Notes under the pieces: model-generated
What the model was told of the DNA's origin: nothing
What the model saw: the letters and a program-made list of their open reading frames with translations, nothing else
The model's database searches: none
Source of the DNA: Paenibacillus jilunlii
GTDB taxonomy: Bacteria > Bacillota > Bacilli > Paenibacillales > Paenibacillaceae
Direction: 5' to 3'
Assembly (NCBI RefSeq): GCF_900102965.1
Contig: NZ_FNGM01000003.1
Coordinates: forward strand, 419,100-483,099
Length of the DNA stretch: 64,000 nt
Program-made: the position numbers and the translations under genes
Part shown: positions 5,420-58,916 of the stretch, piece after piece
Numbering within the stretch: position 1 is the first letter of the stretch
Layout: each line of letters begins with the position of its first letter

Positions 5420-5426
5420 CCGGGGA

Positions 5427-6497: not shown

Positions 6498-6952
6498 CTC
6501 AGCAACAGTTCCTTTCCGTTCAAGTCTCCGATTCCGTGGCGTGCCGTATTTTGCAGCTCACGAAGCATCGTTTCATTCACCTGCCGGTCTCCTCTGAATC
6601 CGCCGAGAAGGACCCCGGCCACGCGGGCGTCATTCCACAGCGGTACAGCCCCGATGCTGTTTAGCTTCTCTGAATTGACAATCGGATAACTAAACAGCAT
6701 TTCCTGCTTTACCTGTTCTTGTACAGAGTAGAGTAAAAACGGCTTTCCGGTTTTGAATACGATTCCCGCTATGCCTCTTCCGGACTGCAGCACAATCCGC
6801 TTATACCGGGAATTCAAGTTGCCGGAGGCGTATTTCCATCGGATCACATAGTCATATTCCGCAGGGTCAGCAAATGCCAATGACATGAAATCAAACCCTA
6901 GGGCTTGCCGGATTTGGTCAAGCTCCAGCTGGTAATTGACCTGGTTTTTCAT
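6494..6952 (-). CDS. nreA: NreA, GAF-domain nitrate sensor
   Basis: A 152-residue single-domain GAF protein immediately before nreB and overlapping it. In Staphylococcus carnosus NreA binds nitrate and restrains NreB. The GAF core is recognisable: GFDFMSLAFADP, VLQSGRGIAGIVFKTGKPF and SIGAVPLWNDARVAGVLLGG. A GGAGAGGA site precedes the ATG by 4-5 bases. It follows narI by about 50 bases and is probably part of the long nar transcript. Confidence 0.9.
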   Translation of the reverse strand: MKNQVNYQLELDQIRQALGFDFMSLAFADPAEYDYVIRWKYASGNLNSRYKRIVLQSGRGIAGIVFKTGKPFLLYSVQEQVKQEMLFSYPIVNSEKLNSIGAVPLWNDARVAGVLLGGFRGDRQVNETMLRELQNTARHGIGDLNGKELLLS

Positions 6953-7000
6953 CGTTTCCTCTCCTATTGAACAGGGAAAGAAGTTTGGGCTTGCTTTCCT

Positions 7001-12800: not shown

Positions 12801-13484
12801 CTGCGGGGACGCTGGAGGCAGATCCGCGTACCAGTCGTAAAAGCTGAGCATTTGCCCGCCAAGCAGCGAGATGAACCGCGCACCCGAAGCATAGCTGACC
12901 ATCGACATGGCCGGAATCGGAGTGAAGCCTGCAATCCGGTCGGGACCATACTTGCGGATCGTATAGATCAGCTGGGCCGAGATCAGACGAAGCGCATCCT
13001 CCCAGGCTACACGGATATGGCCGCCTTTGCCGCGGGCTTTTTTGTAGGTATCGGCTTTCGCAGGGTCTTCTACGATGCTGGCCCATGCATCCACAGGATT
13101 GTCATGCTCAAGCAGTGCAGCCTTCCACAGCCGCCACAGCTTCCCTCTCATATAGGGATATTTCACCCGGAGCGGGCTGTATTCATACCAGGAGAAGGTG
13201 GCTCCTCTGGGACAGCCCCGGGGTTCAAACTCCGGCATATCGGGACCGCAGGACGGATAGTCAATCTGCTGGTTCTCCCAGGTGATGATCCCGTTCTTCA
13301 CAAAAACCTTCCAGCTGCAGGAACCCGTACAGTTGACTCCGTGCGTAGTGCGGACTACTTTATCATGGGACCAGCGCTGGCGGTACATGTCCTCCCAATC
13401 CCTGTTCTTTTCCTCCAGAATGGACCAGTTCCCGGAATAGCTTTCGACCGGTTTAAAAAAGTTGAGACCGTATTTTTTCTTCAT
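9810..13484 (-). CDS. narG: NarG, respiratory nitrate reductase alpha subunit
   Basis: The catalytic subunit reduces nitrate to nitrite at a molybdo-bis-MGD centre on the cytoplasmic side. At 1224 residues it is full length. The N-terminal FS0 cluster motif THGVNCTGSCSW (around residue 48) has His in the first position, as in NarG, and is followed by YPSCGPDMPEFEPRGCPRGA. The Mo-ligand Asp is expected near the segment that ends in the WYNAGYLMMWGSN motif. The C-terminal molybdopterin-dinucleotide-binding domain contains HRMPRGTMFMYHAQDKH. There is no Tat leader, as expected. It heads the operon, with NreC-like dyads upstream. Confidence 0.97.
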   Translation of the reverse strand: MKKKYGLNFFKPVESYSGNWSILEEKNRDWEDMYRQRWSHDKVVRTTHGVNCTGSCSWKVFVKNGIITWENQQIDYPSCGPDMPEFEPRGCPRGATFSWYEYSPLRVKYPYMRGKLWRLWKAALLEHDNPVDAWASIVEDPAKADTYKKARGKGGHIRVAWEDALRLISAQLIYTIRKYGPDRIAGFTPIPAMSMVSYASGARFISLLGGQMLSFYDWYADLPPASPQIWGEQTDVPESSDWYNAGYLMMWGSNVPLTRTPDAHFMTEVRYKGTKVVSVAPDLAENVKFADNWLAPNPGTDAALAQAMTHVILKEFYNEREEPMFINYAKQFTDMPFIILLDPHKSSLKGGRFLRASDLGDTSQHADWKPVIYDTVSGELIVPNGTMGQRWETDKKWNLILEQEDGTKIDPALSVEGHGGQWEEIVFPYFDQAGNGTFKRIIPAMKIRLADGTERYAATVYDLMLSQYGIARTASPWNAKDYDDSASHYTPAWQEKITSVKSSVVVQIAREFAQNSLDTGGRSMIIMGAGINHWFNSDTIYRSILNLVVLTASQGVNGGGWAHYVGQEKCRPIEGWSTIAFAKDWQGPARQQNATSFFYFATEQWRYEESGTDSLKSPTAGEVAYQHPADYNVLAARLGWLPSFPQFNKNSLLFAEEAAQQGKKSNAEIIAHTLEGIKSRKTRFAVEDPGAPENFPRSLFIWRSNLISSSAKGQEYFMKHLLGASDGLLAKPNEEQKPEEIVWREDVEGKLDLMVALDFRMTTTPLYADIVLPAATWYEKTDLSSTDMHPFVHPFNPAVNPLWESRSDWDIYRQLSEVFSEMAKSELPGVYKDLVASPLAHDSISEISQPMGLVKDWAKGEVEAVPGKTMPNLSIVERDYTKIHDKYVSLGPNLVIGKAGAHGISFSVAEEYEELKRLNGVFYDETIKNGLPKIQTARQVADTILHLSSATNGRVSQKAYEQAEKDSGVVLRDISADRAAEKITFQSITAQPREVIPTPVFSGSNKQGRRYSPFTTNIERLVPFRTLTGRQHFYIDHEIFQQFGEALPVYKPTLPPMVLGPRDREVKGGQDALVLRYLTPHGKWNIHSTYQDNQHMLTLFRGGPTVWINNEDAEQHGISDNDWLEVYNRNGVVTARAVVSHRMPRGTMFMYHAQDKHIQVPGSEITDTRGGSHNAPTRIHLKPTQMVGGYAQLSYGFNYYGPIGNQRDVYVAVRKMKEVNWLED

Positions 13485-13555
13485 TGCTTACGAACACTCC
13501 TTTGCAGAATGAAGGACATGGAAGAGTCACACTCACTTTTCATTCGAATAATTTC

Positions 13556-13561
13556 ATTATG
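13556..13561 (-). promoter_or_regulatory. Candidate -10 element of narG
   Basis: CATAAT read leftward, which places the NreC-like dyad at 13586-13599 about 43 bases upstream of the expected transcript start. Confidence 0.4.
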
Positions 13562-13585
13562 GAGGTCCGGGGCATGAGTTCCCAT

Positions 13586-13599
13586 TAGGGAATGTCCTA
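13586..13599. promoter_or_regulatory. NreC-box-like dyad upstream of narG
   Basis: TAGGG-AATG-TCCTA has one mismatch to TAGGG-N4-CCCTA and lies about 100 bases before the narG start. A weaker copy (GCGGG-AAAT-CCCTT) follows at 13607-13620. Confidence 0.6.
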
Positions 13600-13633
13600 T
13601 AGTCCCGCGGGAAATCCCTTGATTCCGCCAAAA

Positions 13634-13672
13634 GCGAAAAAAGCCCGCCTCTTCAAGAGGTGAGCTTTTCGC
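13634..13672 (-). terminator. Hairpin between narG and the divergent hemerythrin gene
   Basis: A long interrupted stem (GCGAAAA...GCTTTTCGC with an inner CCTC/GAGG stem) is followed by six Ts when read leftward. It would stop leftward transcripts before the narG control region and so insulate narG from antisense read-through from nsrR. Confidence 0.5.
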
Positions 13673-13706
13673 ATGTTCATGTCAGGAAGGATATCCGCTG
13701 AGCAGT

Positions 13707-13777
13707 CAGGGAGTTCCCTCTTTTTGCACAGGGGATGTCCTAACCGGAATTTTCACAGCTCTTCTATATGCTATACT
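13707..13777 (+). promoter_or_regulatory. Promoter of the second hemerythrin gene with two NreC-like dyads
   Basis: CAGGG-AGTT-CCCTC at 13707-13720 and CAGGG-GATG-TCCTA at 13729-13742 each differ at two positions from the NreC consensus. TATACT at 13772-13777 fits a -10 element, placing the dyads near -70 and -48. This is similar to the spacing at narG. Confidence 0.5.
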
Positions 13778-13802
13778 GAAAAAAAATCGGGGAGGATGAA
13801 CA

Positions 13803-14228
13803 ATGACAGGACCCTCATTACGCCAATTGCACGCCCATCACGCGATTCATCAAGGCGGATTGTCCGGAGCAGTTGCCAAAACGGAAGAAGTGGAGAAGCT
13901 GCTGGAGCTTCACGAATTAGAGATCGCGAGACAAGCGGCAGATCACCTCGTCGAGTACTGGGAAACAAGGATACTCAGCCACGCGGAAGCAGAGGAAGAA
14001 GGATTCTACCCGGAAATGGCAGCAAATCACCCAGGTCTGCAGGATGCTGTAACGAAGCTAACCCGTGATCATGAGCTGCTGCGCACAATCGTCACGGATA
14101 TCAAAAGCATGCTTAGTGAAGACGGCCTCACACCGGAGGTTCTTCAACAGTTTCATGCCCTCTTGGTCGTGAACGCTATTCATAGCCGGGATGAGGAAAG
14201 GCTGCTGCTGGAAGAGCCGTCACTATAA
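13803..14228 (+). CDS. Hemerythrin-domain protein (divergent from narG)
   Basis: A 141-residue hemerythrin-like protein. Candidate di-iron ligands are LHAHHAIHQGG near residue 10, HAEAEEEGFYPE near 60, TRDHELLRTIV near 85 and NAIHSRDEERLL near the C terminus. GGGGAGG lies 7 bases before the ATG. It is transcribed away from narG behind its own promoter bearing two NreC-like dyads, so it is probably induced by anoxia and nitrate. It overlaps the 3' end of nsrR on the other strand by 49 bases. Binding of O2, NO or iron repair are all possible roles. Confidence 0.8.
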   Translation: MTGPSLRQLHAHHAIHQGGLSGAVAKTEEVEKLLELHELEIARQAADHLVEYWETRILSHAEAEEEGFYPEMAANHPGLQDAVTKLTRDHELLRTIVTDIKSMLSEDGLTPEVLQQFHALLVVNAIHSRDEERLLLEEPSL

Positions 14229-14701
14229 TCGTTATCGTTACCGGATTGCCGGGTGGTATCTAATGATTCCCTCTGAAAAATAGCCTGCAGATCATGCTTA
14301 TTCAGCAATAAATCCTGTAATGTATATTCGCTGAGCACCTGCAAGTAGGCAGCCAATGCTCTGCCAAGCACTCCCTTTAAATTGCACACCGGAGAGATCG
14401 GACAGTTGTTGCCGGAAGGGTCAAAGCATTCTACAAGATGAAAATCATCTTCCATCCGGCGCACAACTTCTCCGATGTTAATCAGCTCAGGTGCCTTGGC
14501 CAGACGGATCCCCCCTCCTCTGCCTCTTACCGTTTCAATATACCCCGCTTGCCCAAGTTCATGGGATACCTTCATCAGATGATTTTTGGATATATGATAG
14601 GCATTTGAAATATCTTGTATCGTTGACAGCTCGCCCCGCTCTTTCGTCCCGAGGTACATGAGGACCCGCAAAGAAAAATCCGTGTACATAGTAAGTCTCA
14701 T
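14180..14701 (-). CDS. nsrR: NsrR-like Rrf2-family nitric-oxide-sensing repressor
   Basis: An Rrf2 winged-helix protein. The N terminus MRLTMYTDFSLRVLMYLG and HISKNHLMKVSHELGQAGYI form the DNA-binding part, and a wing region follows (VRGRGGGIRLAKAPE). Three cysteines in ECFDPSGNNCPISPVC fit the NsrR [4Fe-4S] cluster. It sits divergently beside hmp with an NsrR-like operator between them. The start is uncertain: ATGs at 14701 and 14710 are both possible. The Ser-rich C-terminal tail, encoded where the gene overlaps the hemerythrin gene, makes the protein longer than typical NsrR (about 145 residues). Confidence 0.85.
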   Translation of the reverse strand: MRLTMYTDFSLRVLMYLGTKERGELSTIQDISNAYHISKNHLMKVSHELGQAGYIETVRGRGGGIRLAKAPELINIGEVVRRMEDDFHLVECFDPSGNNCPISPVCNLKGVLGRALAAYLQVLSEYTLQDLLLNKHDLQAIFQRESLDTTRQSGNDNDYSDGSSSSSLSSSRL

Positions 14702-14728
14702 TTGATTCATCATTCCTTGGTTGCAGTA

Positions 14729-14744
14729 TGTGATCTTTGTTACA
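14729..14744. promoter_or_regulatory. FNR-type site candidate upstream of nsrR
   Basis: TGTGA-N6-TTACA differs at one base from the bacillar Fnr palindrome TGTGA-N6-TCACA. It lies just upstream of the preferred nsrR starts. Confidence 0.35.
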
Positions 14745-14774
14745 AATGATACCATATAAATTGACGATTTTGTT

Positions 14775-14800
14775 AAAGTGGTATTTTAAATATATCTTTT
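14775..14800. promoter_or_regulatory. NsrR-like operator between nsrR and hmp
   Basis: An AT-rich imperfect palindrome centred on TATTTTAAATATATCTT resembles known NsrR sites in Bacillus. The position between the divergent genes fits autoregulation and repression of hmp. Confidence 0.5.
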
Positions 14801-14852
14801 GACCATAAAAGAGTATATATTAAATTTGTAATAATGAGAGGAGTGAACGGTT

Positions 14853-16034
14853 ATCTTATCCAAACAAACACGCGAAATCGTCAAATCCACAGCCCCAGTC
14901 TTAGCGGAACACGGCACTGCCATTACATCGGTATTCTATCGGAATCTGTTTGCGGCCCACCCTGAACTTCTGAATGTATTTAATCATGCCAACCAGGCGC
15001 AAGGCCGGCAGCAGGCAGCACTCGCGAATGCAGTGTATGCAGCAGCAGTTCACATTGACAACCTGGAGAATATTTTGCCGGCGGTTGTCCAGATTGCCCA
15101 CAAGCATGTCAGCCTTGGCATTAAACCGGAGCAGTATCCGATTGTCGGTGAGTTTCTGCTGAAAGCCATCAAGGAAGTGCTTGGCGATGCTGCAACAGAT
15201 GACATCCTGCAGGCCTGGGAAGAAGCCTATGGCGTGATTGCCAATGCCTTCATCGGTGTTGAAGCGAATATGTACAAGGAAGCCCGGGAGCAGGAAAACG
15301 GCTGGAATTTCTTCAAACCGTTTACGATTGTCCGCAAGGTACAGGAAAGCGACAGTATTACATCCTTCTATCTGAAGCCGGCAGACGGTTCCGGTGTACC
15401 GGCATTCAAGCCGGGGCAGTATATCTCTGTGCGTGTTCTGATTCCGGGTGAACAATACACCATGATCCGCCAGTACAGCCTGTCCCAGGCGCCAAAGCCG
15501 GATGAGTTCCGCATCTCCGTGAAGCGGGAAGCCGATAATGATCCAAACGGTGTAGTCTCCGTCTACCTTCACAAACAGGTGAACGAAGGGGATACAGTCG
15601 AAGTAAGCGCTCCTGCCGGTGAATTTTTGCTGGATGCTACAAAAACCACGCCAGTGGCTTTTATCTCAGGCGGTGTAGGAATCACCCCGATGATGAGCAT
15701 GCTCGAAACGGTGGCCGTGTCCACGCCGGACCGTCCTACGGTTTTCCTCCACGCTGCACGTAATGAATCACTGGCCGCTTTTGGTGAGGATATTGAAAAA
15801 CATGCGCTCAACATGAGCAACATTCAATATAAAACTTATTACTCAAGCGGACCCGATGGTCAAATCACCCGTGAAGCATTAGCGGCGTATGTTGATCCTG
15901 CAGGTGATGCCTATGTATGCGGGCCTGTTCCCTTCATGGAAGCCATGATCCGCGAACTGCTGGCGCTTGGGATGAAAGAAGAACAAATTCATTATGAGTT
16001 TTTTGGTCCGGCCCTGCAATTAGAACAAGCATAG
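14853..16034 (+). CDS. hmp: Flavohemoglobin (nitric oxide dioxygenase) with apparent AUC start
   Basis: Hmp oxidises NO to nitrate with O2 and NAD(P)H. The 393-residue reading covers a globin domain (residues 1-140: VLAEHGTAITSVFYRNLF, then the heme-proximal QIAHKHVSLGIKPEQYPIVG), an FAD domain (RQYSLSQAP, GVVSVYLHK) and a NAD domain (FISGGVGITPMMSML, YVCGPVPFM). The globin homology continues upstream of the first in-frame ATG (15033) to LSKQTREIVKST, where the only start-position codon is ATC at 14853, 9 bases after GAGAGGAG; an in-frame TGA lies just before. So it begins at a rare AUC or the sequence has a base error there. Confidence 0.93.
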   Translation: MLSKQTREIVKSTAPVLAEHGTAITSVFYRNLFAAHPELLNVFNHANQAQGRQQAALANAVYAAAVHIDNLENILPAVVQIAHKHVSLGIKPEQYPIVGEFLLKAIKEVLGDAATDDILQAWEEAYGVIANAFIGVEANMYKEAREQENGWNFFKPFTIVRKVQESDSITSFYLKPADGSGVPAFKPGQYISVRVLIPGEQYTMIRQYSLSQAPKPDEFRISVKREADNDPNGVVSVYLHKQVNEGDTVEVSAPAGEFLLDATKTTPVAFISGGVGITPMMSMLETVAVSTPDRPTVFLHAARNESLAAFGEDIEKHALNMSNIQYKTYYSSGPDGQITREALAAYVDPAGDAYVCGPVPFMEAMIRELLALGMKEEQIHYEFFGPALQLEQA

Positions 16035-16047
16035 TTACACCATTACA

Positions 16048-16091
16048 CCAAACGGGTACACCGTCCTTCGCCGGACAGTGTACCCGTTTGG
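16048..16091. terminator. Bidirectional terminator hairpin between hmp and the Crp/Fnr gene
   Basis: A 14-bp perfect stem (CCAAACGGGTACAC with its complement) carries an inner GTCC/GGAC stem. It lies between convergent genes. A near-identical hairpin occurs at 51447-51482. Confidence 0.85.
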
Positions 16092-16104
16092 TTAGGTTTA
16101 TGGT

Positions 16105-16812
16105 TTAATCGATGTATTTCTCCAAAGAAGGCCTGTTCCGTATAACCATCCGTTTGTTGCCGATCAGCTCAATCAGTCCCAAGTCTTCAAAGATGGCGAA
16201 TTTCCGGCTGATGGTTTCCCGGGTAACACCTGCATAATTGGCCAGCTCTTCACGGGACAGCGGGAGATCAATATGAATTCGGCCGCCGCGCATTTTGCCA
16301 TAGATATCGCTAAGCTCCAGAATCATGTAGGCAATACGGATTTCAGGGTCCTTGGTTGCCAGACTTTGCGCCAGATTTTCAGTATGGGCCAGTCTTTTGG
16401 TAACCGTCTTTAGCAGCTTGAAGGCGATGTCCGGATTTTCCAGCATGATCCGCTCCATATCCGCTCTGGTCAGCATGCAGATGCTGGTGTCTTTCAGTGC
16501 ATAAGCACTAAAGTTGCTGAGCTCATCGCTGTTAAAGATGCTTAACTCACCAAAGAAATCACCTGCGGTTAAAATATGCAGGATCTGCTCCTTCCCCTGC
16601 GGCGTCATTTTGGACAATTTAACTTGCCCCTGCTGAATTATGAACAAGGTATCGGTCGGCTGCTCTTCCAGAATCAGCGGCTGTCCTTTGGTATATTTCC
16701 GGTGGATAATCATAGCGCTGATCCGGGAGAGATCGGCACCAGACAACGAAGCGAAGATCGGCACCTTGCGGGTACAGGGCTCTGCGGCATTTTGACAGGA
16801 ATGTTCCGGCAT
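16105..16812 (-). CDS. Crp/Fnr-family transcription regulator
   Basis: A 235-residue regulator. The cyclic-nucleotide-binding-like beta roll runs from about residue 20 to 130 (FIIQQGQVKLSK, GDFFGELSIFN), and the HTH domain ends the protein with LSREELANYAGVTRETISRKF, whose E-x2-SR recognition helix is that of FNR-type proteins. There are N-terminal cysteines at about positions 6 and 13 (SCQNAAEPC) and one in TSICML near 113. That is fewer than the four cluster ligands of E. coli FNR, so oxygen sensing is uncertain. The location inside the nitrate/NO island suggests control of anaerobic or NO genes. Confidence 0.85.
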   Translation of the reverse strand: MPEHSCQNAAEPCTRKVPIFASLSGADLSRISAMIIHRKYTKGQPLILEEQPTDTLFIIQQGQVKLSKMTPQGKEQILHILTAGDFFGELSIFNSDELSNFSAYALKDTSICMLTRADMERIMLENPDIAFKLLKTVTKRLAHTENLAQSLATKDPEIRIAYMILELSDIYGKMRGGRIHIDLPLSREELANYAGVTRETISRKFAIFEDLGLIELIGNKRMVIRNRPSLEKYID

Positions 16813-16837
16813 CTCGGGTCTCTCCTTTTCTTAAAAT

Positions 16838-16999
16838 CTATGAAATGGGTGAAAAATGGCTGGTGTCTTCTCCGCAGACCGGGCAGACCCAATCCTCCGG
16901 CAGATCTTCAAATGCAGTGCCCGGTGCCACATCCTCATCGGGGTCGCCAATCGCAGGATCATAAATATAACCGCAGGGTTCACATACATATTTTTTCAT
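16838..16999 (-). CDS. Rubredoxin
   Basis: A 53-residue rubredoxin with both Fe-binding loops, [15 protein letters not shown] and [14 protein letters not shown] start at 16999 (MKKYVC), the usual rubredoxin N terminus, with GGAG 9 bases upstream. The last gene of the leftward trio flavodiiron protein - reductase - rubredoxin, it probably carries electrons from the FAD reductase to the flavodiiron protein. Confidence 0.93.
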
Positions 17000-17021
17000 C
17001 AGGTTCATCTCCAGTTTATAA

Positions 17022-18245
17022 TTAGTTTTGTAATCTTGTTTGAACTTCCGACATGATCTCTGGGAGGCTGCTGGAAAGATCAATGCCCTCCAGGCTGCAG
17101 CCCGTCTCAATGGCAGATTTATAGACCAGTGAAGCCGCTGCGCCTTCCCAGGAAATAGCACCGGTTATTGTGTTATCTTTCACAAATATCTGTGTGTAAA
17201 TGCCGTTCTCCTGCGCGGACATACTCACGTCACACTGTGATTCATCGGTCATTCCAATGGAAAAAAGCGATATTCCAAACGCATTAAAGTAGGTAACCGG
17301 AACGGCTTTGCGATAAGCCGCAGGTTCACTCGCTGCCATATTGTTGCCGGCAACACGGCCCTGCTCCATAGCTCCTCCCCATAAGCCTTCAACTTGTCCG
17401 TTCATTTCGGCGATATCCCCGGCAGCATATACATGCGGAGCGCTGGTCTCCATATTGGGGTTAACGATAATACCTGAACGGGTATCAATCGGTGTATCCT
17501 GCACAAGCTTTGTGTCCGGTACGATGCCAATCGAATAAACGACATGATCGCAAGCAACTGCAGATTCATCGTCAAGTGTAACTCCAGTAACGGCCTCTTC
17601 TCCCGTGATCGAGGTTACGCCGGAATGAAGAATGACTTTTACCCCAGACTGTTCGAGGGTCTGCTTGAGCATCTGTGAAGAAGTTTCATCCAGTTGTCTG
17701 ATCATCAACCGTGGTGCCGCTTCGACAACGGTCACTTCGTATCCGGCTTCATGCAAGGCCCATGCGGTTTCCAGCCCCTGCACCCCACCGCCGATGACAA
17801 CGATACGGTTGCCGCTTTCGAGGCTGGCTTTCAGCCTATCGGCATCTTGTAAATTCCGGATAGTATGAACGTTCTTCAGCCCCGCACCTTCCACAGGGAG
17901 CGCGCGGTTTCTCGCCCCCATGCAGAGCAGAAGCTTATGATACGCAATCTGTCGGCCGTCAGCAGTTTCCACCTGCTGACGGTCCGTGTTGATATGAGTG
18001 ACACGGGTAGAAGTGTGGACGTTGATTCGGTTGTCCTTGTACCATTTTTCCTTTTTGATCAAAACCTTCTCACTGTGCAAATCGGTGAACAACCCCTTGG
18101 TCAGCTTAATCCGGTTATACGGAAGATGCGCCTCCTCCCCAAGGATGGAGATCTCCGTATCCGTATCCGGCTCCCGATCACGAATCGCCTTGGCGGCATG
18201 AACGGCGGCCACCCCGCTGCCTACAATCACATAATGTTTGGACAT
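17022..18245 (-). CDS. NorW-like NAD(P)H:rubredoxin oxidoreductase (FAD)
   Basis: A 407-residue pyridine-nucleotide-disulfide oxidoreductase-type flavoprotein. The FAD-binding GxGxxA motif starts the protein ([17 protein letters not shown]), the NAD(P) motif is [16 protein letters not shown] near residue 147, and the second FAD motif is [12 protein letters not shown] near 270. No redox-active CxxxxC pair is present, as expected for rubredoxin or ferredoxin reductases. GGGGGG precedes the chosen ATG by 9 bases. Gene order with rubredoxin and the flavodiiron protein indicates a complete electron chain for NO or O2 reduction. Confidence 0.88.
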
Positions 18246-18260
18246 GTGCATTCGCCCCCC

Positions 18261-19496
18261 TTAGTAAGCACTGAGCAGCAGATCCGAAACAAATTCCGCA
18301 GCATTTTTGATTTTTTGCACCTTATCAGCATCCTTCGGTGAGAAACGCACCCGGATCGGAAATTCCACATGGATCATCCCTGTTGATTTGATTACTTCGG
18401 ATGTACTCTGTACGGTCATGTTGGTAGCGTTCAGATAATCCTGAATGACCTCTATGGCTTCCCCGCTCCATCCATAGGAACCAAAAGCAGCTGCGAGTTT
18501 GCCTTCCAGATTCATATTTTGCATTTCTTTCAGAATAGGCTCCAGGTTGCCGATCATATCCGCATATCTGGTAGAGCTTCCGACAAATACGGCGTCGGCT
18601 GAGGCGATGCTGCTCAGAATTTCCGCTGCGCTGCTCTTGTCAGCATCCCATACTTCGGTCTCGATATGATTTTCCTTCAGGCAATCCCGGAGGATGTTCG
18701 CCATTTTTTTGGTATTGTTCTTGAGCGTGGTGTAGACAATTGCCGCTTTTTTGCCTTCATTCGTTTCACGGCTGAGCACATCGTAGAGATCAATATATTT
18801 CCGGATATTTTCCCGGATTAAGAACCCGTGGGAAGGTGCGATCATCTCAATATCCAGGTCCTGGACGGCGTCGATTAGTGTTCTGACATATCTGCGGTGA
18901 GGGTGAATGATTGCACTGTAATAGCCCTTGAAATCCTCCGTAATGTCGAACCCTGCTTCATCGCTGAACAGCTTCTCTACCGCAACATGGGTGCTGAAGA
19001 TATCGCAAGGGAAGAGGATTTTATCTTCCACACAATAGGTGATCATCGTTTCAGCAGTATGAAGATAGGGTGTCTCTTTGAACAACAGGGTTTTACCGCC
19101 GATATCCAGCGTATCCCCATCGTTCACAACGAGAAAGTTCCGGCTGTGAAGCTTATACATTTCCTGCAGCTCCGGCACAGCAATCGCGGTGCAGACAATC
19201 GTGGCGTTCAAAGCCCGGGAGGCCAGCGCAGCCAATCCCCCGGAATGGTCAGGCTCTGTATGGTTGATGACGATATACTCAATATCCATGGGATCAATGA
19301 ACTGGCTGAGCCGCTCCGCATACTCACGTCCAAATTCCATATCCACGGTATCAATCACCGTCGGCTTGCCGGTTTTTAGCAGGTAGGAGTTATAGGTTGT
19401 TCCCTTCGCCAGAATCAGACGATGAAACGGGACCTCGCGGTTATCAATTTTACCGACCCAATACGTATCTTGTGCAATCTTATATTCTGTGTTCAT
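18261..19496 (-). CDS. Flavodiiron protein (FprA/NorV-like NO or O2 reductase)
   Basis: About 411 residues with a metallo-beta-lactamase-like di-iron domain and a C-terminal flavodoxin domain. The di-iron ligand motif HTEPDHSGG (H-x-E-x-D-H) is near residue 79, further ligands are in TPYLHTAETM and LFPCDIFSTHV, and the FMN domain starts AAIVYTTLKNNTKKMA. I start at 19496 because AGGAGG lies 8 bases upstream. It heads the operon with the reductase and rubredoxin, and reduces NO to N2O or O2 to water in the cytoplasm. There is no fused rubredoxin domain, so the separate one is probably its partner. Confidence 0.92.
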   Translation of the reverse strand: MNTEYKIAQDTYWVGKIDNREVPFHRLILAKGTTYNSYLLKTGKPTVIDTVDMEFGREYAERLSQFIDPMDIEYIVINHTEPDHSGGLAALASRALNATIVCTAIAVPELQEMYKLHSRNFLVVNDGDTLDIGGKTLLFKETPYLHTAETMITYCVEDKILFPCDIFSTHVAVEKLFSDEAGFDITEDFKGYYSAIIHPHRRYVRTLIDAVQDLDIEMIAPSHGFLIRENIRKYIDLYDVLSRETNEGKKAAIVYTTLKNNTKKMANILRDCLKENHIETEVWDADKSSAAEILSSIASADAVFVGSSTRYADMIGNLEPILKEMQNMNLEGKLAAAFGSYGWSGEAIEVIQDYLNATNMTVQSTSEVIKSTGMIHVEFPIRVRFSPKDADKVQKIKNAAEFVSDLLLSAY

Positions 19497-19513
19497 AAGC
19501 TCAGCCTCCTGAA

Positions 19514-19528
19514 TGATAATGTTTATCA
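19514..19528. promoter_or_regulatory. Palindrome in the flavodiiron gene leader
   Basis: TGATAA-TGT-TTATCA is a perfect inverted repeat directly upstream of the ribosome-binding site, just downstream of a TAGAAT -10 candidate (19537-19542). A repressor site is likely; the regulator is unknown. Confidence 0.4.
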
Positions 19529-19542
19529 ACAACCTCATTCTA

Positions 19543-51974: not shown

Positions 51975-52742
51975 CTAGCCGATCCGGGAACGCGCTGCCT
52001 TTTCCATACTTAGCAGCTGATCTCTTACGGTAATTGACTCCCCAATGATGATGATGGCCGGATTGCTGATCTTCATAGCGGCAGCCAGCTTATCTATATT
52101 GCCTAACGTTCCTGTAACTGTGCGTTCACGGACCGTCGTTCCATTCTCAATCAGCGCAGCAGGTGTCGCAGGGTTCTTCCCATACTTCAATAGCTGCTCA
52201 CGGATTTCAGCTAATGTGCTGACTCCCATATATATGACCAGAGTATCCACGCTGTGGACAAGCCCTTCCCAGTGCACGGCTGAAGCATGATCATGGCAGC
52301 GGCTGCCCGTCACAATGGCAAAAGATGCTGCAAGCCCGCGGTGGGTCAGCGGAATTCCGGCCGAAGCCGCCGCGCCGATGGCTGAGGTGATGCCGGGAAT
52401 GACCTCATAAGCGATGCCGGCGGCCGCGACCGCCAGCGCTTCTTCCCCGCCTCTCCCGAACACATAGGGATCGCCTCCCTTCAGCCGGACCACTTGATTT
52501 CCGGCGGCTGCATATTTAATCATCAGCTTTTCGATGGCCTCCTGCGGCATGGAATGACGGCCAGGAGCTTTGCCGCAGTAGATTCTCAGTGCCTCCGGTT
52601 TCACGTAGCCCAGAATTTCTTCATTCACCAGCCGGTCATAGAGAATCACGTCAGCTGTCTGAATCCTCCGCACGGCTTTGACGGTAAGCAGCTCCGGGTC
52701 TCCTGGTCCTGCTCCGACAATCGACACACTCCCTTGGTTCAT
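51975..52742 (-). CDS. cobA: Uroporphyrinogen-III C-methyltransferase (siroheme synthesis)
   Basis: A 255-residue SUMT that makes precorrin-2, the first step to siroheme, the nitrite-reductase cofactor. Signatures are IVGAGPGDPELLTVKA near residue 8, KGGDPYVFGRGGEEALA near 83 and LTHRGLAASFAIVTG near 132. GGAGAGAAGCCT precedes the ATG. It follows nirB and nirD on the same strand, so it forms the nirBD-cobA operon. No chelatase or dehydrogenase domain is fused. Confidence 0.92.
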   Translation of the reverse strand: MNQGSVSIVGAGPGDPELLTVKAVRRIQTADVILYDRLVNEEILGYVKPEALRIYCGKAPGRHSMPQEAIEKLMIKYAAAGNQVVRLKGGDPYVFGRGGEEALAVAAAGIAYEVIPGITSAIGAAASAGIPLTHRGLAASFAIVTGSRCHDHASAVHWEGLVHSVDTLVIYMGVSTLAEIREQLLKYGKNPATPAALIENGTTVRERTVTGTLGNIDKLAAAMKISNPAIIIIGESITVRDQLLSMEKAARSRIG

Positions 52743-52832: not shown

Positions 52833-53150
52833 TTACAACGTCAGATAGATTGAACCATTGCTCTGGTCCACTTCGACCTCATACGTAACTACATGGCCAT
52901 GATCCGGCTCCTGGACCACACCGGTGTGCAGATCAATGCGCCAATCATGGAGCGGGCAATGCACCTTTGAGCCACAGACCATTCCCTCCGACAAGGCTCC
53001 GCCTTTGTGCGGGCACTTATTCTCGACCGCCAGCACTTCTCCATCCGACAGGCGGAACAGTGCAATCTCACGGTCACCTACTCTGACGATACGGGAGCCT
53101 TTAATATCAATATCTGTCACCTTGCCCACAAGCATTTTGGTCATTTCCAT
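52833..53150 (-). CDS. nirD: Nitrite reductase [NAD(P)H] small subunit
   Basis: A 105-residue Rieske-type [2Fe-2S] protein. Ligand motifs are CPHKGGALSEG near residue 46 and CPLHDWRIDL near 65. It partners NirB. GGAGGGG lies 6 bases before the ATG, and the gene follows nirB by 12 bases. Confidence 0.93.
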   Translation of the reverse strand: MEMTKMLVGKVTDIDIKGSRIVRVGDREIALFRLSDGEVLAVENKCPHKGGALSEGMVCGSKVHCPLHDWRIDLHTGVVQEPDHGHVVTYEVEVDQSNGSIYLTL

Positions 53151-53162: not shown

Positions 53163-55592
53163 CTATACCGTCTTCATTTCGGACAACTGCTCGAAATTTT
53201 TACGCAGCTCCGGCTCATTCACAATCTGCTTCCAGGGATCGGTTGTCACACTAAGCGCAGTGTGGATTCTCTCCTGAAGGGCAAGCCGGTTCTCCCGTAC
53301 CTCCAGCACTTCCTTGATACTGTCCAGTCCTACCCGCTCCACCCATTGCGCGGTCCGCTCATTCCAGCCGGCCTGTTCGCGGTAATATTGCAGGAATGCG
53401 CTGGCCCACTCCAGGACCTCATCATCGGTTTTGACCACACAGAGCAGATCCGTGGCCCGCACATGCACGCCGCCGTTACCTCCGATGTGAAGCTCCCAGC
53501 CGCCGTCTATGGCGACCACGCCAAAATCCTTAATCGTTGCTTCCGCGCAATTGCGCGGGCAGCCGGATACCGCAAGCTTCACCTTGCCCGGTGTATTCAG
53601 CCGCTCGAATGCTTTCTCCAGCCGGACTCCCATACCCATGGCATCCTGGGTACCAAACCGGCAAAAGGTTGAGCCGACACAGGTTTTGACTGTGCGGAGC
53701 GTCTTGCCGTAGGCATGGCCTGAAGGCATATCCAGCTCTTCCCACATCTTGGGCAAGTCTTCTTTTTTGACACCGAGCAGATCCAGTCTCTGCCCTCCGG
53801 TGAACTTCACCAGCGGAACCTCGAATTTGGCGGCAACCTCGGCAATCTTCATCAGTTCAGCAGGTGAGGTTACACCGCCGTATATCCGTGGAACAACGGA
53901 GTAGGTTCCGTCTTTCTGAATATTGGCATGATAACGCTCATTGGTGATCCGGGATTCTTTTTCATCGATATATTCTTCAGGCCACAGCATCCCCAAATAG
54001 TAATTCAGAGAAGGACGGCATTTGGCACAGCCTTCTTCCGTATTCCATTCCAGGACGTTCATGACTTCCTTAACGGTCTTCAGCTCCATGCGCTTGATTT
54101 CCGCGACAATTTCGTCCCGTCCCAGTGTGGTGCAGCCGCAGATGCCTTCCTTCACTGTCATTACATTATCTCCGGCGTAAAGCTGCAGGAGTCCTTCCAC
54201 CAGCGGTTTGCAGCCGCCGCAGGATGCGGAGGCCTTAGTGCAGGCTTTGATCTGGCCGACACTCGTACAGCCGCCGGACTGAATCGCTTCGGCAATAGTA
54301 CCTTTGGATACCCCGTTGCAGCCGCAGATGATCTCGTCATCGGCCATTCCTTCGAGCCGGTTGCCTTTGGGGGAAGCCAGTGCATCTGAGGATATGCCGA
54401 GCAGCAGCTCTTTTTCTTTGCCTTTAATGTTTTCGCCATTTTTGATCATGGAAAAGAGCTGGGCACCATCGCCGGTATCCCCGAACAAAACGGCGCCGAC
54501 CAGTTGGTCATCCTGGATAACCAGTTTCTTGTAAACCCCTTCGATCTCGTCCTGATACCGGAGGGCTCTGGTGCCGGGCTGCTCTGTGAATTGGCCTGCC
54601 GAGAAGACATCGACACCGGACACCTTCAGCTTGGTTGAGGTTACCGAACCGGCATAGCCGTCAGTTGCCGCACCGGCCAGTCTTTTAGCCAGAACCGCCC
54701 CCTGTTCGTAGAGCGGTGCCACAAGCCCGTAGGCAATCCCCCTATGCTCTGCACATTCACCCACGGCATAGATGCCGGGAATATTTGTTTCCATGTAATC
54801 ATTAACGACGATGCCCCGGTTCGTCTTGACTCCGCTTTTCTGCGCCAGCTCGACATTGGGCTTGATGCCGACAGCCATAACGATCAGATCTGCTTCGGCA
54901 ATTTCTCCGTCTGCGAACAACAGGCCTTTGACTCTTTTTTTGCCGAGAATCGCTTCAGACTGCTTATTCAGCAGAAACTTCATTCCCTGCTCTTCCAGCT
55001 CCTTGCGGAGCATCACGGATGCCGGTTCATCCAGCTGGCGCTCCATGATATAAGGATGGATGTGTACAACAGAGACCTCCATTCCCAGATGCAGCAGCCC
55101 TCTGGCCGCCTCCAGACCCAGAAGCCCGCCGCCGATCACCACAGCTTTGCGGTATCTTTGTGAGGTTTCCTGCATGATCTGGCAATCCTTGATATCGCGG
55201 AAAGCAATGACCCCTTCCTTCTCGGCTCCCGGAAGCGGCAGCATAAACGGATTGGAGCCTGTCGCCAGTATCAGTTCATCATAGGGCAATACGATTCCTT
55301 TATCGGAGTATACTTTTCGCTCAGCAGTATCAATAGAAGTAATCGTGTGGCCCATATATAACCGGATGCCATGGCTGTGATACCATTCCAGATCATTGAT
55401 AATGATCTCCTCCATGCTGGAGCCGCCTGCCAGAACAGAGGACAGCATAATCCGGTTGTAATTGGGATGCGGCTCTGAGCCGAAGATGGTAATCTCATAA
55501 GCCTCCGGGGACAATTTCAATAAATGCTCGATAGCCCGCACCCCGGCCATCCCGTTGCCCACCAATACGAGTTTCTTGCGAATGTCTGTCAT
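53163..55592 (-). CDS. nirB: Nitrite reductase [NAD(P)H] large subunit
   Basis: An 809-residue multidomain enzyme that reduces nitrite to ammonium with NAD(P)H. Order: FAD/NAD domain (LVLVGNGMAGVRAIEHLL, VVIGGGLLGLEAARGLL near 150), two BFD-like [2Fe-2S] segments (CGCNGVSKGTIAEAIQSGG near 415; CGCTTLGRDEI, then CAKCRPSLNYYLGML), and the siroheme/[4Fe-4S] domain with TCVGSTFCRFG and VSGCPRNCAEA near residues 635-680. I start at 55592 because GAGGAG lies 8 bases upstream. The preceding leader carries the ANTAR-type elements. Confidence 0.96.
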   Translation of the reverse strand: MTDIRKKLVLVGNGMAGVRAIEHLLKLSPEAYEITIFGSEPHPNYNRIMLSSVLAGGSSMEEIIINDLEWYHSHGIRLYMGHTITSIDTAERKVYSDKGIVLPYDELILATGSNPFMLPLPGAEKEGVIAFRDIKDCQIMQETSQRYRKAVVIGGGLLGLEAARGLLHLGMEVSVVHIHPYIMERQLDEPASVMLRKELEEQGMKFLLNKQSEAILGKKRVKGLLFADGEIAEADLIVMAVGIKPNVELAQKSGVKTNRGIVVNDYMETNIPGIYAVGECAEHRGIAYGLVAPLYEQGAVLAKRLAGAATDGYAGSVTSTKLKVSGVDVFSAGQFTEQPGTRALRYQDEIEGVYKKLVIQDDQLVGAVLFGDTGDGAQLFSMIKNGENIKGKEKELLLGISSDALASPKGNRLEGMADDEIICGCNGVSKGTIAEAIQSGGCTSVGQIKACTKASASCGGCKPLVEGLLQLYAGDNVMTVKEGICGCTTLGRDEIVAEIKRMELKTVKEVMNVLEWNTEEGCAKCRPSLNYYLGMLWPEEYIDEKESRITNERYHANIQKDGTYSVVPRIYGGVTSPAELMKIAEVAAKFEVPLVKFTGGQRLDLLGVKKEDLPKMWEELDMPSGHAYGKTLRTVKTCVGSTFCRFGTQDAMGMGVRLEKAFERLNTPGKVKLAVSGCPRNCAEATIKDFGVVAIDGGWELHIGGNGGVHVRATDLLCVVKTDDEVLEWASAFLQYYREQAGWNERTAQWVERVGLDSIKEVLEVRENRLALQERIHTALSVTTDPWKQIVNEPELRKNFEQLSEMKTV

Positions 55593-55620: not shown

Positions 55621-55684
55621 AGAAAAAGCCCGCTTCACTCCACACGGAAACATACATCTCCCGTTGTGAAAAGTGAAAGCAGGC
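55621..55684 (-). terminator. Attenuator terminator in the nirB leader
   Basis: A stem of GCCTGCTTTCAC and GTGAAGCGGGC (arms 55673-55684 and 55628-55638 on the plus strand) with one bulged T is followed by TTTTTC, 30 bases before the nirB start. Its upstream arm overlaps the second ANTAR hairpin, so the two structures exclude each other. Confidence 0.75.
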
Positions 55685-55697
55685 GCCATTGCCGCTT
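55677..55697 (-). promoter_or_regulatory. ANTAR target hairpin P2
   Basis: Leftward AAGCGGC and GCCTGCTT pair with one bulged T around the hexaloop AATGGC (A at 1, G at 4). The 3' arm doubles as the terminator 5' arm. Confidence 0.7.
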
Positions 55698-55701
55698 CAA
55701 G

Positions 55702-55721
55702 CGAATACACCATTGTATTCG
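55702..55721 (-). promoter_or_regulatory. ANTAR target hairpin P1
   Basis: Leftward CGAATAC and GTATTCG form a perfect 7-bp stem around the hexaloop AATGGT (A at loop position 1, G at 4). It is separated from P2 by four bases. Confidence 0.75.
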
Positions 55722-55746
55722 AAGACTTGTTGAAATTCTTACACCG

Positions 55747-55776
55747 ACTATACTACAGGAATTCAATTTACGTCAA
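55747..55776 (-). promoter_or_regulatory. nirB promoter
   Basis: TTGACG (-35, 55776-55771) and TATAGT (-10, 55752-55747) are 18 bases apart. The transcript would begin near 55740, leaving a leader of about 150 bases that holds P1, P2 and the terminator. Confidence 0.65.
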
Positions 55777-55787
55777 TATTGTTAACA
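55771..55787. promoter_or_regulatory. Weak TnrA/GlnR-like site over the nirB -35
   Basis: Leftward TGTTAACAATATTGACG keeps TGTNA at one end but has three mismatches to TGTNANAWWWTNTNACA, and overlaps the -35 element. Confidence 0.3.
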
Positions 55788-55833
55788 CATAAAATTTTAT
55801 AATTTTAATTTATCGACAAAATCACATAATTTG

Positions 55834-55850
55834 TGTTATATAATATTACA
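55834..55850. promoter_or_regulatory. Perfect TnrA/GlnR box
   Basis: TGTTATATAATATTACA fits TGTNANAWWWTNTNACA at every fixed position. It lies between nirB and the ANTAR gene, about 75 bases before the ANTAR start, and overlaps a TATAAT element for that gene. Confidence 0.7.
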
Positions 55851-55923
55851 TCACCTTTTTTTCTTATCTAAGATGTAATTCTTCCCCACCCGATGACTAC
55901 GAAGTAAAAAGGAGCGTCAAACT

Positions 55924-56520
55924 ATGCATTCCCTGTTGATTATTCAGAATAACAAAACAGAGAACGTCACAGAAGAGCGTTCATCAACAGGACCGGACTC
56001 CCTGCTTCGTTCCTGTGGTTATGTAGTCACGGCTGCAGCTTCTCCAGAGGAGGCGAAGCTGATGATCCGTGATGCGGATGCTTCCATCCTCGATCTGCCG
56101 GTTACAGAGATCAACACCTGGAGAGCATCGCTGATGCAGTGCAAAACCGCTCCCATTCTATGGTGGTGCACCTCATCAACGGCGAACTTGTCGGTTGCTG
56201 CCTGCGGGGATGATATTATGGTGGACGGAATTTTGTCCCCTTCCATGCAGCCTCAGGACATTCACTGGATTCTTCATTTCAGTGCCAGGCAATGCTTCGA
56301 GCGCCAGCAGTGGCTCAAGGAGCGGGAGCAGCTGTTGTCACGGATTGAAGAGCGCAAATGGATTGATATGGCCAAAGGCATCCTCTCCAAAGCCAAGAAT
56401 ATCAGCGAATCCGAAGCCTATGACCTTCTTCGCAAGCAAGCCATGAATGAACGCAAGCGGATGGTTGATGTAGCTACTTCTATAGTTAAGGTGTATCAAC
56501 TGCTGCAGGATCAAACTTAA
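55924..56520 (+). CDS. ANTAR-domain RNA-binding antiterminator (NasT-like)
   Basis: A 198-residue protein. The N-terminal ~125 residues resemble a degenerate receiver with LLIIQNN at the start and IDGILSPSMQPQ-like end, but I do not see a full phosphorylation pocket. Residues about 135-195 form an ANTAR domain: LSRIEERKWIDMAKGILSKA, then NISESEAYDLLRKQAMNERK and ATSIVKVY. AAGGAG lies 9 bases before the ATG. ANTAR proteins bind dual hexaloop hairpins to prevent termination; such hairpins lie in the adjacent nirB leader. Confidence 0.88.
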   Translation: MHSLLIIQNNKTENVTEERSSTGPDSLLRSCGYVVTAAASPEEAKLMIRDADASILDLPVTEINTWRASLMQCKTAPILWWCTSSTANLSVAACGDDIMVDGILSPSMQPQDIHWILHFSARQCFERQQWLKEREQLLSRIEERKWIDMAKGILSKAKNISESEAYDLLRKQAMNERKRMVDVATSIVKVYQLLQDQT

Positions 56521-56532: not shown

Positions 56533-57585
56533 ATGATTAATATTCTAAAAGAAGTCGCCCGGGGCAAACGGGGAGCCCGTGATTTAAGCTACCAGGAAGC
56601 GGAATACGCAGCGGAGGCCATTCTCAGCCAGACAGCTTCACCTGTGCAGATCGGTGCTTTTCTGATTGCGGAACGGATTAAGCTGGAGAGCATTGAAGAG
56701 CTGGAGGCCTTTGTGTCCGTCTGCCGCAAATACGCCCACCGTGAACCGGTACAGCAGGGTCTGGATTGTGCCGGTCCTTATGATGGCCGGAAGAAGTCTT
56801 TTGCCGCAACGTTTCCGACTTCCTTCTTATGTGCTGCGGCGGGTCTTCCTGTCACCCTTCACGGGTCAGCCTCATTACCGCCTAAATGGGGGATTACCCT
56901 GCAGGATATTATTCAGGAATCGGGGATTGAGGCGACTGCGCTCAGCCGGGCGGAAGTGGTGGAATCTGCAGGCAAAAGCGGTGTGCTGTACGTCCATGCG
57001 GAAGCGTGGTGTCCGCCTCTTGCGTCTATCCGCCAGCTTCGTGAGGATATCGGCATGCGGACGATCTTGAATACGGTAGAAAAGTTCATTGATTACGCCT
57101 GCTCGCCTTACATCGTATTTGGAATCTATCATAATACGGTCTTTGACCGCATCTCCAGAATGATTCTTAAGCTTGGCTACCGCAAAGGCCTGGTTGTACA
57201 AGGAGCGGAAGGCTCCGAGGATCTCTATATCGACCGCCCGAACAGGGTATATTACGTGGCAGATGGAACAGCCCAATTAGACATTATTGATCCGGAGCTG
57301 TTAGGTTTGGAAACGCCGGTGCCGGAAATGGACTGGACTCCCCGGCTGCAATTGTCGGCAGCAGAAGCTGTGCTGCAGGGAGGCGGACATATCGCCTTTT
57401 ACAATCAAGTGCTGCTTAATGGGGCTGCCCGCCTGCATCTGGCCGGAAAAGTCAATTCGATTGAAGAAGGCCTCTATACCTGCAAGCATCTGCTGGATAA
57501 CGGTGACGCCTGGGTAGTCTATACGAAATGGAGAAGCTCACTGCTTGGCAGCAAAACCCCGTCAGAGTCTGGCTTGTCCATCTGA
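56533..57585 (+). CDS. TrpD2/YbiB-like anthranilate-phosphoribosyltransferase-fold protein
   Basis: A 350-residue protein with the phosphoribosyltransferase-III fold: an N-terminal helical domain (LSYQEAEYAAEAILS, QIGAFLIAERIK), then the C-terminal domain (GIRMRTILNTVEKF-like GMRTILNTVEKF, VVQGAEGSEDL). The GTGGD motif of true TrpD is replaced by CAGPYDGRKKSF, so it is probably not the tryptophan enzyme. TrpD2/YbiB proteins bind nucleic acid. AAGGAG precedes the ATG and the gene follows the ANTAR gene by 12 bases. Confidence 0.75.
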   Translation: MINILKEVARGKRGARDLSYQEAEYAAEAILSQTASPVQIGAFLIAERIKLESIEELEAFVSVCRKYAHREPVQQGLDCAGPYDGRKKSFAATFPTSFLCAAAGLPVTLHGSASLPPKWGITLQDIIQESGIEATALSRAEVVESAGKSGVLYVHAEAWCPPLASIRQLREDIGMRTILNTVEKFIDYACSPYIVFGIYHNTVFDRISRMILKLGYRKGLVVQGAEGSEDLYIDRPNRVYYVADGTAQLDIIDPELLGLETPVPEMDWTPRLQLSAAEAVLQGGGHIAFYNQVLLNGAARLHLAGKVNSIEEGLYTCKHLLDNGDAWVVYTKWRSSLLGSKTPSESGLSI

Positions 57586-58211: not shown

Positions 58212-58916
58212 TCAGTTAGACTCATAGATGTTGCGGCTCGCAAGTGCGGTAAGCCCTGCCTTGTCTTTTACCAGAAGATGTCCGTTTTCCCTTTCGATCA
58301 GGCCGTCTTGTGTAAGCTTGTGAATGACCCGGTTCAAATGCCTGTAGCTTGTTCCAATAAAATTGGCGGTGTCGGTCAGGTTGATCGTACTCAGCTGGCC
58401 GGTAAAGTTAGGATCGGATTCATCATAGGAGATGGACAGCAAATAACTGGCTAGCCGCACTTCTACAGGATGCATCAGATTCAAGCTGAGGAAATTGGAT
58501 TTGCGGTAGAACTTCTGAGTGATCATTTCCAGCATAAAATGCAGCAGGGGCGGATGCTCCTTGCCGTATTTGTTCAGCCAGCGGTATTCTAGGCCAAGCA
58601 TATGCACCGGGGATACGGCCTCCACCGTATTAATCATTTCCGTGCCTTGAATGTATTCGACATCACCGATCAGCTCCAGCGGTGTTTTGAACGAGATAAT
58701 CAGCGTTTTTCCTTCAGGAGTGGTGGTGAAGATTTTCAGCTTCCCTTTGACCAGAACGTATAGATATTCGGAAGGATCACCTTTGGAGCAGATATGCTCC
58801 CCTTGTGCGAAGCTGTAGAGATGCAGATGCCCGCTAAGCTGTTCATTAAAAATAGCCGTCAGGGAATATGCTGCAATGTATGCCTGAAGCTGCTCCGAAT
58901 CCTGAATTTCTTTCAT
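58212..58916 (-). CDS. Crp/Fnr-family regulator (YeiL-like)
   Basis: A 234-residue regulator. The beta-roll core has EHICSKGDPSEYLYVLVKGK and LIGDVEYIQG; the HTH reads ANFIGTSYRHLNRVIHKL with the usual order of the family. There is a single Cys at about residue 46, so no iron-sulfur cluster is expected. It lies between two DUF606 genes on the same strand and probably controls them. Confidence 0.85.
   Translation of the reverse strand: MKEIQDSEQLQAYIAAYSLTAIFNEQLSGHLHLYSFAQGEHICSKGDPSEYLYVLVKGKLKIFTTTPEGKTLIISFKTPLELIGDVEYIQGTEMINTVEAVSPVHMLGLEYRWLNKYGKEHPPLLHFMLEMITQKFYRKSNFLSLNLMHPVEVRLASYLLSISYDESDPNFTGQLSTINLTDTANFIGTSYRHLNRVIHKLTQDGLIERENGHLLVKDKAGLTALASRNIYESN

Follow-up and report, generated by a model that had tools for sequence, protein, structure and literature searches.

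The 64,000-nucleotide stretch of Paenibacillus jilunlii DNA analysed here (i.e. the window) carries a nirB-nirD-cobA operon whose leader faces a divergently transcribed gene for an ANTAR-domain protein. This arrangement raises the question of whether the neighbouring protein controls transcription into nirBD-cobA and, if so, which signal it follows. An initial annotation had proposed that the protein prevents termination in the nirB leader, probably in response to nitrate or nitrite sensed by its N-terminal domain. Features of the locus are collected in Table 1.

Table 1. Features of the nirB-ANTAR region (window positions)
Feature	Position	Strand	Details
cobA-like uroporphyrinogen-III C-methyltransferase (SUMT; siroheme synthesis)	51975-52742	-	TIGR01469, 313.4 bits (cut-off 185)
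nirD, Rieske-type small subunit	52833-53150	-	family match
nirB, nitrite reductase large subunit	53163-55592	-	ATG 55592 taken as start
Intrinsic terminator	55684-55623	-	5' arm is the P2 3' arm; U-tract TTTTT at end
Hairpin P2	55698-55675	-	GAAGCGGC-AATGGC-GCC-T-GCTTTC; hexaloop AAUGGC; one bulged U
Hairpin P1	55721-55702	-	CGAATAC-AATGGT-GTATTCG; hexaloop AAUGGU; sequence, folding, alignment
nirB promoter (putative)	55747-55776	-	-35 TTGACG (55776), 18 nt, -10 TATAGT (55752-55747)
GlnR/TnrA-type box 2	55771-55787	-	TGTTAACAATATTGACG; last base G not A; overlaps -35
GlnR/TnrA-type box 1	55834-55850	-	TGTAATATTATATAACA; perfect TGTNAN7TNACA
ANTAR antiterminator, divergent pseudo-receiver N-terminus	55924-56520	+	Pfam PF03861, 2.4e-18
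TrpD-fold (PRK07394/TrpD2-like) protein without PRPP motif	56533-57585	+	12 nt past ANTAR stop

The nirB leader RNA

Two consecutive hairpins (P1 and P2), separated by a spacer of 3 nt, were seen in the nirB leader both in the sequence and on folding. As initially annotated, each has a hexaloop with A at position 1 and G at position 4 (A1/G4), and the 3' arm of P2 lies within an arm of an intrinsic terminator; such loops and such an overlap are features of ANTAR target RNAs. The shared arm, GCCTGCTTTC (55684-55675), pairs at 9 of 10 positions with TGAAGCGGGC (55637-55628), after which TTTTT follows, and the TTG at 55619 that starts the listed nirB ORF falls just past this U-tract. Folding energies were -16.7 kcal/mol (z -2.65) for P1 and P2 alone and -38.0 kcal/mol (z -4.04) for the leader through the terminator, a value reached by none of 200 shuffles. 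Folding of the leader, a check suggested with the initial annotation, gave P1 and P2 and then a terminator that displaces P2: both hairpins were present in prefixes of up to 92 nt, P2 was gone at 93 nt and the terminator took its place in the full-length leader, i.e. the two structures are mutually exclusive. The folding program also paired A1 with U6 within the P1 loop of the window sequence; this pair is not general, because base 6 varies among the 81 sequences described below (U in 53, C in 22, A in 3 and G in 3).

A composite descriptor of the leader, with thresholds chosen once the site was known, found one site in the 64-kb window, both strands included, as compared to three in total in 60 dinucleotide shuffles. 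The reality of the feature is decided by conservation of the leader rather than by this single-window count. The nirB-leader terminator was absent from the list produced by a simple terminator scan. Identity as an Rfam riboswitch was rejected, as nothing matched the leader at gathering scores and the two matches below these were weak and unrelated.

Conservation of the leader among relatives

Relatives of the locus were obtained by a scan with the ANTAR protein, from which the best 80 of 178 confirmed relatives were kept (i.e. Paenibacillus, Cohnella, Saccharibacillus and two records named Bacillus). Among these 80, nirB is divergent from the ANTAR gene in 79, the other (L032) showing no nirB. 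A leader of this kind could be placed in every one of the 81 loci, the P. jilunlii genome included, with the terminator arm set a few bases off in two (L027 and L028). The placing script demands A1/G4 loops, takes the best-scoring site and rewards pairing, so that invariance of A1/G4 is built into these placements. The stems were also searched with the loops left unconstrained in 79 leaders, L021 and L032 being left out as they could not be cut. The P2 stem pattern (GGC-N6-GCCTG) occurred 79 times in these 79 leaders, always around a loop with A1 and G4, and the P1 stem pattern enclosed A1/G4 loops exclusively. A first scan, which required at least 4 unbulged pairs in both hairpins, had overlooked the majority of leaders, as 3 pairs of P2 precede the bulge, and had listed chance pairs in many loci; a second scan gave some site in 78 of 80 loci, with certain leaders misplaced.

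In an alignment of 81 distinct rows (alignment A1), standard pairs occupied 94.5% of the P1 and P2 cells, where shuffles gave 90.7% and slid controls no more than 45.1%; for P1 and the terminator the figure was 96.2%. Cells in which both sides of a pair had changed exceeded shuffles for P1 (43 versus 13.8), P2 (13 versus 2.7) and the terminator (19 versus 7.1). The number of pairs with both-side changes was not above shuffles, since several pairs never vary; it was reached by 28, 87, 56, 311 and 143 of 500 shuffles in the tests of P1 with P2, P1 with the terminator, P2, the terminator and P1, respectively. P2 is the weakest helix, with a covariation of 0.087 against 0.078 in the control slid by +1, and its outer pairs are variable, the outermost counted pair missing in 25, the next in 15 and the third in 9 of the 81 sequences. 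The same arrangement with compensatory changes thus recurs in the leaders of all 81 loci, and the lack of conservation in relatives that would have spoken against the initial annotation was not found. A chance fold was rejected on the basis of this conservation, the both-side changes and the A1/G4 loops recovered from the stems. It is also very improbable that the leader simply terminates transcription or insulates the two divergent genes from each other and is no ANTAR target; the terminator exists and Rfam gave no gathering-score match, as this would have it, but P1 lies outside the terminator and is itself conserved and covarying, and every loop found through its stem is A1/G4.

Across 148 genomes of the family, an ANTAR match was detected in 123, a relative of the TrpD-fold gene (i.e. 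TrpD2-like, E <= 1e-40) in 75 and a leader (model R2, E <= 0.01) in 90; R2 derives from the 81 leaders, and the species of the two samples may overlap. A leader lies divergently upstream of the ANTAR gene in 74 of 75 ANTAR-TrpD2-like loci as compared to 12 of 65 other ANTAR places. One genome, G100, has the ANTAR and TrpD2-like genes with an undetectable leader. Eleven leader matches lie away from ANTAR genes, six of which were fetched. Those of L104, L105, L107 and L109 stand between divergent narK and nasB-like genes, where one strand scores 26.8-32.5 bits and its complement 14.0-18.9, and that of L108 (26.9 bits) is followed by an unannotated ORF and then by a nirB/nasB-like gene. The sixth, a dual-hairpin match within an amidohydrolase ORF of the opposite strand (L106:4007-4054, +; 30.4 bits), is probably due to chance and shows that false matches to R2 reach about 30 bits. 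In all eight loci fetched from a second lineage (L097-L103 and L115), narK comes after the ANTAR gene and a TrpD2-like gene was not detected; four of the eight have a weak leader before narK (15.9-22.7 bits). The likely regulon in relatives comprises genes with nirBD, narK and nasB-like leaders. In a genome of the same genus (L096), with ANTAR and leader but no TrpD2-like gene, a formate/nitrite-transporter-like gene (L096:2191-3123, -; 158 bits, cut-off 232) lies between nirD and cobA.

The ANTAR protein and a proposed double control

The divergent gene beside the nirB leader encodes, as noted initially, an ANTAR protein. Its ANTAR domain is complete (66.1 bits, Pfam cut-off 27.3), and all 48 homologues match this domain as well. 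The alignment to EutV (PDB 6wsh) is free of gaps over residues 116-188. Ten of the 11 RNA-contact residues named for EutV in PMC8934654 are identical (i.e. R144, K145, K151, E162, Y166, R170, M174, N175, R177 and R179), the sole difference being Met in place of EutV K147. Nine of these ten are present in all 48 homologues and N175 in 47. No other ANTAR match was found in the P. jilunlii genome, which also has one strong leader; a weak match to the leader models R1/R2 (L088) has no ORF of 90 aa downstream on the + strand. A tblastn search of plasmids with the ANTAR protein covered 198 records and gave a best identity of 43.8% (P. cellulosilyticus).

The putative nirB promoter agrees with the consensus at 10 of 12 positions, in a region with 3 promoter-like sites against 1.3 expected. 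A TGTNAN7TNAC[AG] site occurs in 79 of 79 leaders, where shuffles predict any such site in 1.3 of 79, and each of the 79 contains at least one perfect TGTNAN7TNACA, which is the consensus for GlnR/TnrA. A box overlaps a -35 that has a -10 in 76 of 79 leaders; two boxes are present in 65, of which 61 have a spacing of 61-65 nt. Matches to the GlnR pattern in the whole genome (294 and 287) equalled those to a control (294 and 300), so that the box alone is uninformative genome-wide. In P. polymyxa, the promoter region common to nasA and nasD1 is bound by GlnR, as reported in PMC9948412; from the boxes found here, GlnR is predicted to control the nirBD-cobA promoter.

The conservation of the leader with covariation, the retained RNA contacts, the single ANTAR match of the genome and the constant linkage of leader and ANTAR gene make it very likely that the neighbouring protein governs read-through into nirBD-cobA by antitermination, in agreement with the core of the initial annotation. 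With considerable confidence, a double control is proposed, in which GlnR/TnrA-type promoter boxes are combined with ANTAR-dependent read-through that a partner would switch via the pseudo-receiver on nitrite or nitrate. At initiation, the boxes, one of which covers the -35, would set the promoter according to nitrogen status. RNA polymerase would then make P1 and P2; active ANTAR protein would bind and hold both hairpins, keeping the 3' arm of P2 from the terminator and allowing read-through into nirB. If the ANTAR protein is not active, the terminator would displace P2 and transcription would stop.

Comparable switches have been described. Antitermination by NasT, with NasS, acts in the nirBD-PA1779-cobA leader of P. 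aeruginosa (Romeo et al. 2012, via PMC12830290), a system alike in its nirBD...cobA target operon and its ANTAR antitermination in the leader. Unlike NasS-NasT, the locus here is Gram-positive, has a TrpD-fold gene rather than NasS beside the ANTAR gene and carries GlnR/TnrA-type boxes. According to PMC7496416, NasR of Klebsiella oxytoca senses nitrate by a NIT domain and acts on a leader whose hairpins precede an intrinsic terminator; the window protein shares the ANTAR domain (PDB 4akk matches residues 119-192) and the hairpin leader before a terminator, but no NIT domain was found in it. EutV of Enterococcus faecalis recognises a dual hexaloop A1/G4 RNA whose P2 overlaps the terminator (described in PMC3369931 and PMC8934654), to which the present leader corresponds in its dual loops and P2-terminator overlap and the present protein in 10 of 11 contacts. 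NasR and EutV are thus models for the RNA step of this locus and not for its signal. ANTAR RNA matches upstream of nitrite reductase and nitrate/nitrite transporter genes, the class of target to which nirB belongs, were predicted by Ramesh 2012 (PMC3369931), in the main text of which Paenibacillus has 0 occurrences, although these loci may stand in the supplementary tables. Among the matches listed in a literature search, none dealt with regulation of Paenibacillus nirB by an ANTAR protein. This type of mechanism is therefore already known, the variant being the Gram-positive arrangement with GlnR-type boxes and a constant TrpD-fold partner. Such a leader would add, beside GlnR, a second layer of control to nitrite assimilation in Gram-positive soil bacteria.

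Signal input and the TrpD-fold neighbour

At the RNA step, the locus resembles a textbook ANTAR switch; its input is unusual (i.e. a pseudo-receiver, no NasS and a TrpD-fold neighbour). No NIT, PAS or GAF domain was detected at E <= 1 among the 48 homologues, whose profile aligns with EutV and Rv1626 across both receiver and ANTAR. Residue 57, aligned with the receiver Asp of the EutV type, is Asp in only 6 of 48 homologues (the window protein included), and Lys at residues 104-108 is absent in all 48. The N-terminus of NasT is receiver-like and is not known to contain a NIT domain. By this alignment, the N-terminus of the window protein is a divergent pseudo-receiver of the NasT-like class. 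EutV is phosphorylated by EutW; a phosphorelay input was rejected for the present protein, as the phospho-Asp is not conserved among the 48 homologues, and the protein does not conform to the NasR (NIT-ANTAR) type, a NIT match at E <= 1 being found in none of the 48. The signal thus probably reaches the protein by a route other than phosphorylation or a NIT domain. The initial annotation of nitrate or nitrite sensing through the N-terminal domain was thus not upheld.

Some features of this domain could nevertheless suit a sensor. Residues P77, W80, C82, D101-G102 and M108 are common to nitrate/nitrite ANTARs with or without a TrpD2-like gene (17 of 18 aligned), the divergent exception, L164, retaining P77 and D101-G102; three EutV-type ANTARs lack the signature. 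C82 is Cys in 48 of 48 homologues and Thr in the three EutV-type receivers, and could mark a redox or NO input. Direct sensing of nitrate, nitrite or redox/NO by the N-terminal domain, perhaps through this invariant Cys, would fit the conservation of these residues irrespective of the TrpD2-like gene and the Thr of the EutV type, but is considered unlikely, given that no known sensor domain was found among the 48 homologues at E <= 1.

Pseudo-receivers are described in PMC7496416 as a class regulated through a partner protein. No NasS-like gene adjoins the ANTAR gene, the three NMT1_2 matches of the genome lying elsewhere. The gene directly 3' of ANTAR encodes a TrpD-fold protein in all 80 loci (i.e. 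the best 80 of the 178 confirmed relatives). The same holds for each of the 75 carrier genomes among the 148 surveyed, in which the gene lies 45-117 nt from the ANTAR domain. The window protein scores below the cut-offs of both PRK07394 (170.3 bits, cut-off 287) and the YbiB model (89.9 bits, cut-off 185). GTGG is the PRPP motif of TrpD; in its place, the window protein has AGPYDGR and most relatives have AGPY(D/N)GR, with LPPK close by. A GTGG-bearing TrpD (L091) is encoded elsewhere, within a trp operon. A role as the TrpD of tryptophan synthesis was rejected on account of this lost motif and separate trpD. E. coli YbiB, of the TrpD2 family, also has a TrpD fold without TrpD function (PMC10123104); unlike YbiB, the window protein is linked to nitrite reductase. 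A tblastn search of plasmids for TrpD2-like proteins covered 60 records and, among the 40 listed, identities were at most 29%, mostly to proteins named trpD.

A relative of the TrpD-fold protein at E <= 1e-45 was found in 49 of 299 genomes from the class (presumably Bacilli). Of these 49, 22 belong to the family of P. jilunlii and 27 do not; all 28 places in the latter were read. Seventeen of the 28 lie with nirB, nasC, sulfite/nitrite-reductase-like, cobA or chelatase-like genes, one of these (L149) with pieces of narK and nasC only; the other 11 have no such neighbour, three being on stretches of less than 9 kb. An ANTAR gene is directly upstream in five of these places, from three other families (L143, L144, L146, L148 and L164), and the pair is accompanied there by nas genes or cobA; an R2 leader is present in L143 (34.8 bits) and, in part, in L148 (25.4 bits). 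In four places (L154, L157, L159 and L160), a sulfate-assimilation operon contains sat, apsK, reductase-like, TrpD2-like and chelatase-like genes, with cobA in three of the four; the TrpD-fold gene follows the reductase-like gene and precedes cobA and/or the chelatase-like gene. The reductases and chelatases of these operons score under their model cut-offs, and the reductase, for which ferredoxin-nitrite reductase is the best model, is termed sulfite-type from its context. Two copies are present in G164, of which L160 belongs to the sulfate operon and L163 lies by nirB-nirD-nasC. The sulfate copies group in a tree (99/97), and ANTAR-paired copies fall together with others with weak support (82/74). 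Among the matches listed in a literature search, none linked a TrpD-like protein to siroheme reductases.

Two roles of the TrpD-fold protein were weighed against this distribution. An accessory or maturation factor for siroheme nitrite/sulfite reductases, merely co-regulated and not itself a regulator, is a tentative reading to which we give close to an even chance. The 17 of 28 outside places with siroheme-reductase-type or siroheme genes, the four sulfate operons and the split copies of G164 point to such a factor; the 11 places without such a neighbour and the bare narK/nasC pieces of L149 speak against it, and it would leave unexplained the position of the gene in Paenibacillaceae after ANTAR rather than after nirBD. 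Alternatively, the protein may be the NasS-like signal partner of ANTAR, inactivating or activating it according to nitrite, nitrate or nitrite-reductase status. This is possible but rather doubtful. A pseudo-receiver with no recognised sensor, the position of the gene directly 3' of ANTAR in all of the 80 loci and 75 genomes, recurrence of the pair in three other families and the lack of an adjoining NasS-like gene are consistent with partnership, but 12 ANTAR places of the same family have a leader without a TrpD2-like neighbour, all 9 aligned ANTARs without that neighbour keep the signature from P77 to M108, and elsewhere the gene stands in nas, nir and sulfate operons with no ANTAR directly upstream. 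The accessory role is thus more likely than a gate on ANTAR, and both may hold.

Such a gate would unite the two roles: a TrpD-fold pseudo-enzyme serving siroheme reductases would report nitrite or apo-reductase by holding or releasing the pseudo-receiver. This idea is speculative and probably incorrect as it stands. If true, assembly of nitrite reductase would be coupled to nirB transcription, NasS would have a replacement of unrelated fold, and a mechanism would be on offer for the CnaT/NirB-type factors of the cyanobacterial nirA operon, a link that would depend on a TrpD-like nature of cyanobacterial CnaT and that makes the gate attractive. According to PMC9430850, cnaT acts as a positive element on nirA, and PMC10161378 reports an 'anthranilate phosphoribosyltransferase' gene, called unrelated, flanking nrtABCD in freshwater Synechococcus. 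More broadly, a TrpD-fold family tied to siroheme reductases and ANTAR could explain how pseudo-receiver ANTARs are switched without NasS or NIT.

As to the signal itself, no NasC match at E <= 1e-180 was found in the P. jilunlii genome, as compared to matches in 2 of 16 genomes of the genus (G070 and G106) and 77 of 148 in the family, and a family search identified NarG in the same window (ORF 9810-13484). Without NasC and with NarG, nitrite fits at least as well as nitrate, and nitrite of respiratory or external origin is at least as plausible a signal in P. jilunlii. In the relatives with leaders next to narK and nasB-like genes, nitrate is a plausible signal.

Two other observations were made in the window. 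A nitrate-respiration/NO-defence block spans 1496-19538 and contains, besides NarG, members recognised by eye from translations, i.e. moaA, NarK with a PAS-like tail, NreABC-like proteins, narHJI and NsrR-like, flavohaemoglobin, Fnr-like and flavorubredoxin genes. A Crp/Fnr-type regulator, nearest to YeiL (112.1 bits, cut-off 180), is encoded at 58212-58916, and relatives of this regulator lie downstream of the TrpD2-like gene in six other loci (L002-L006 and L014).
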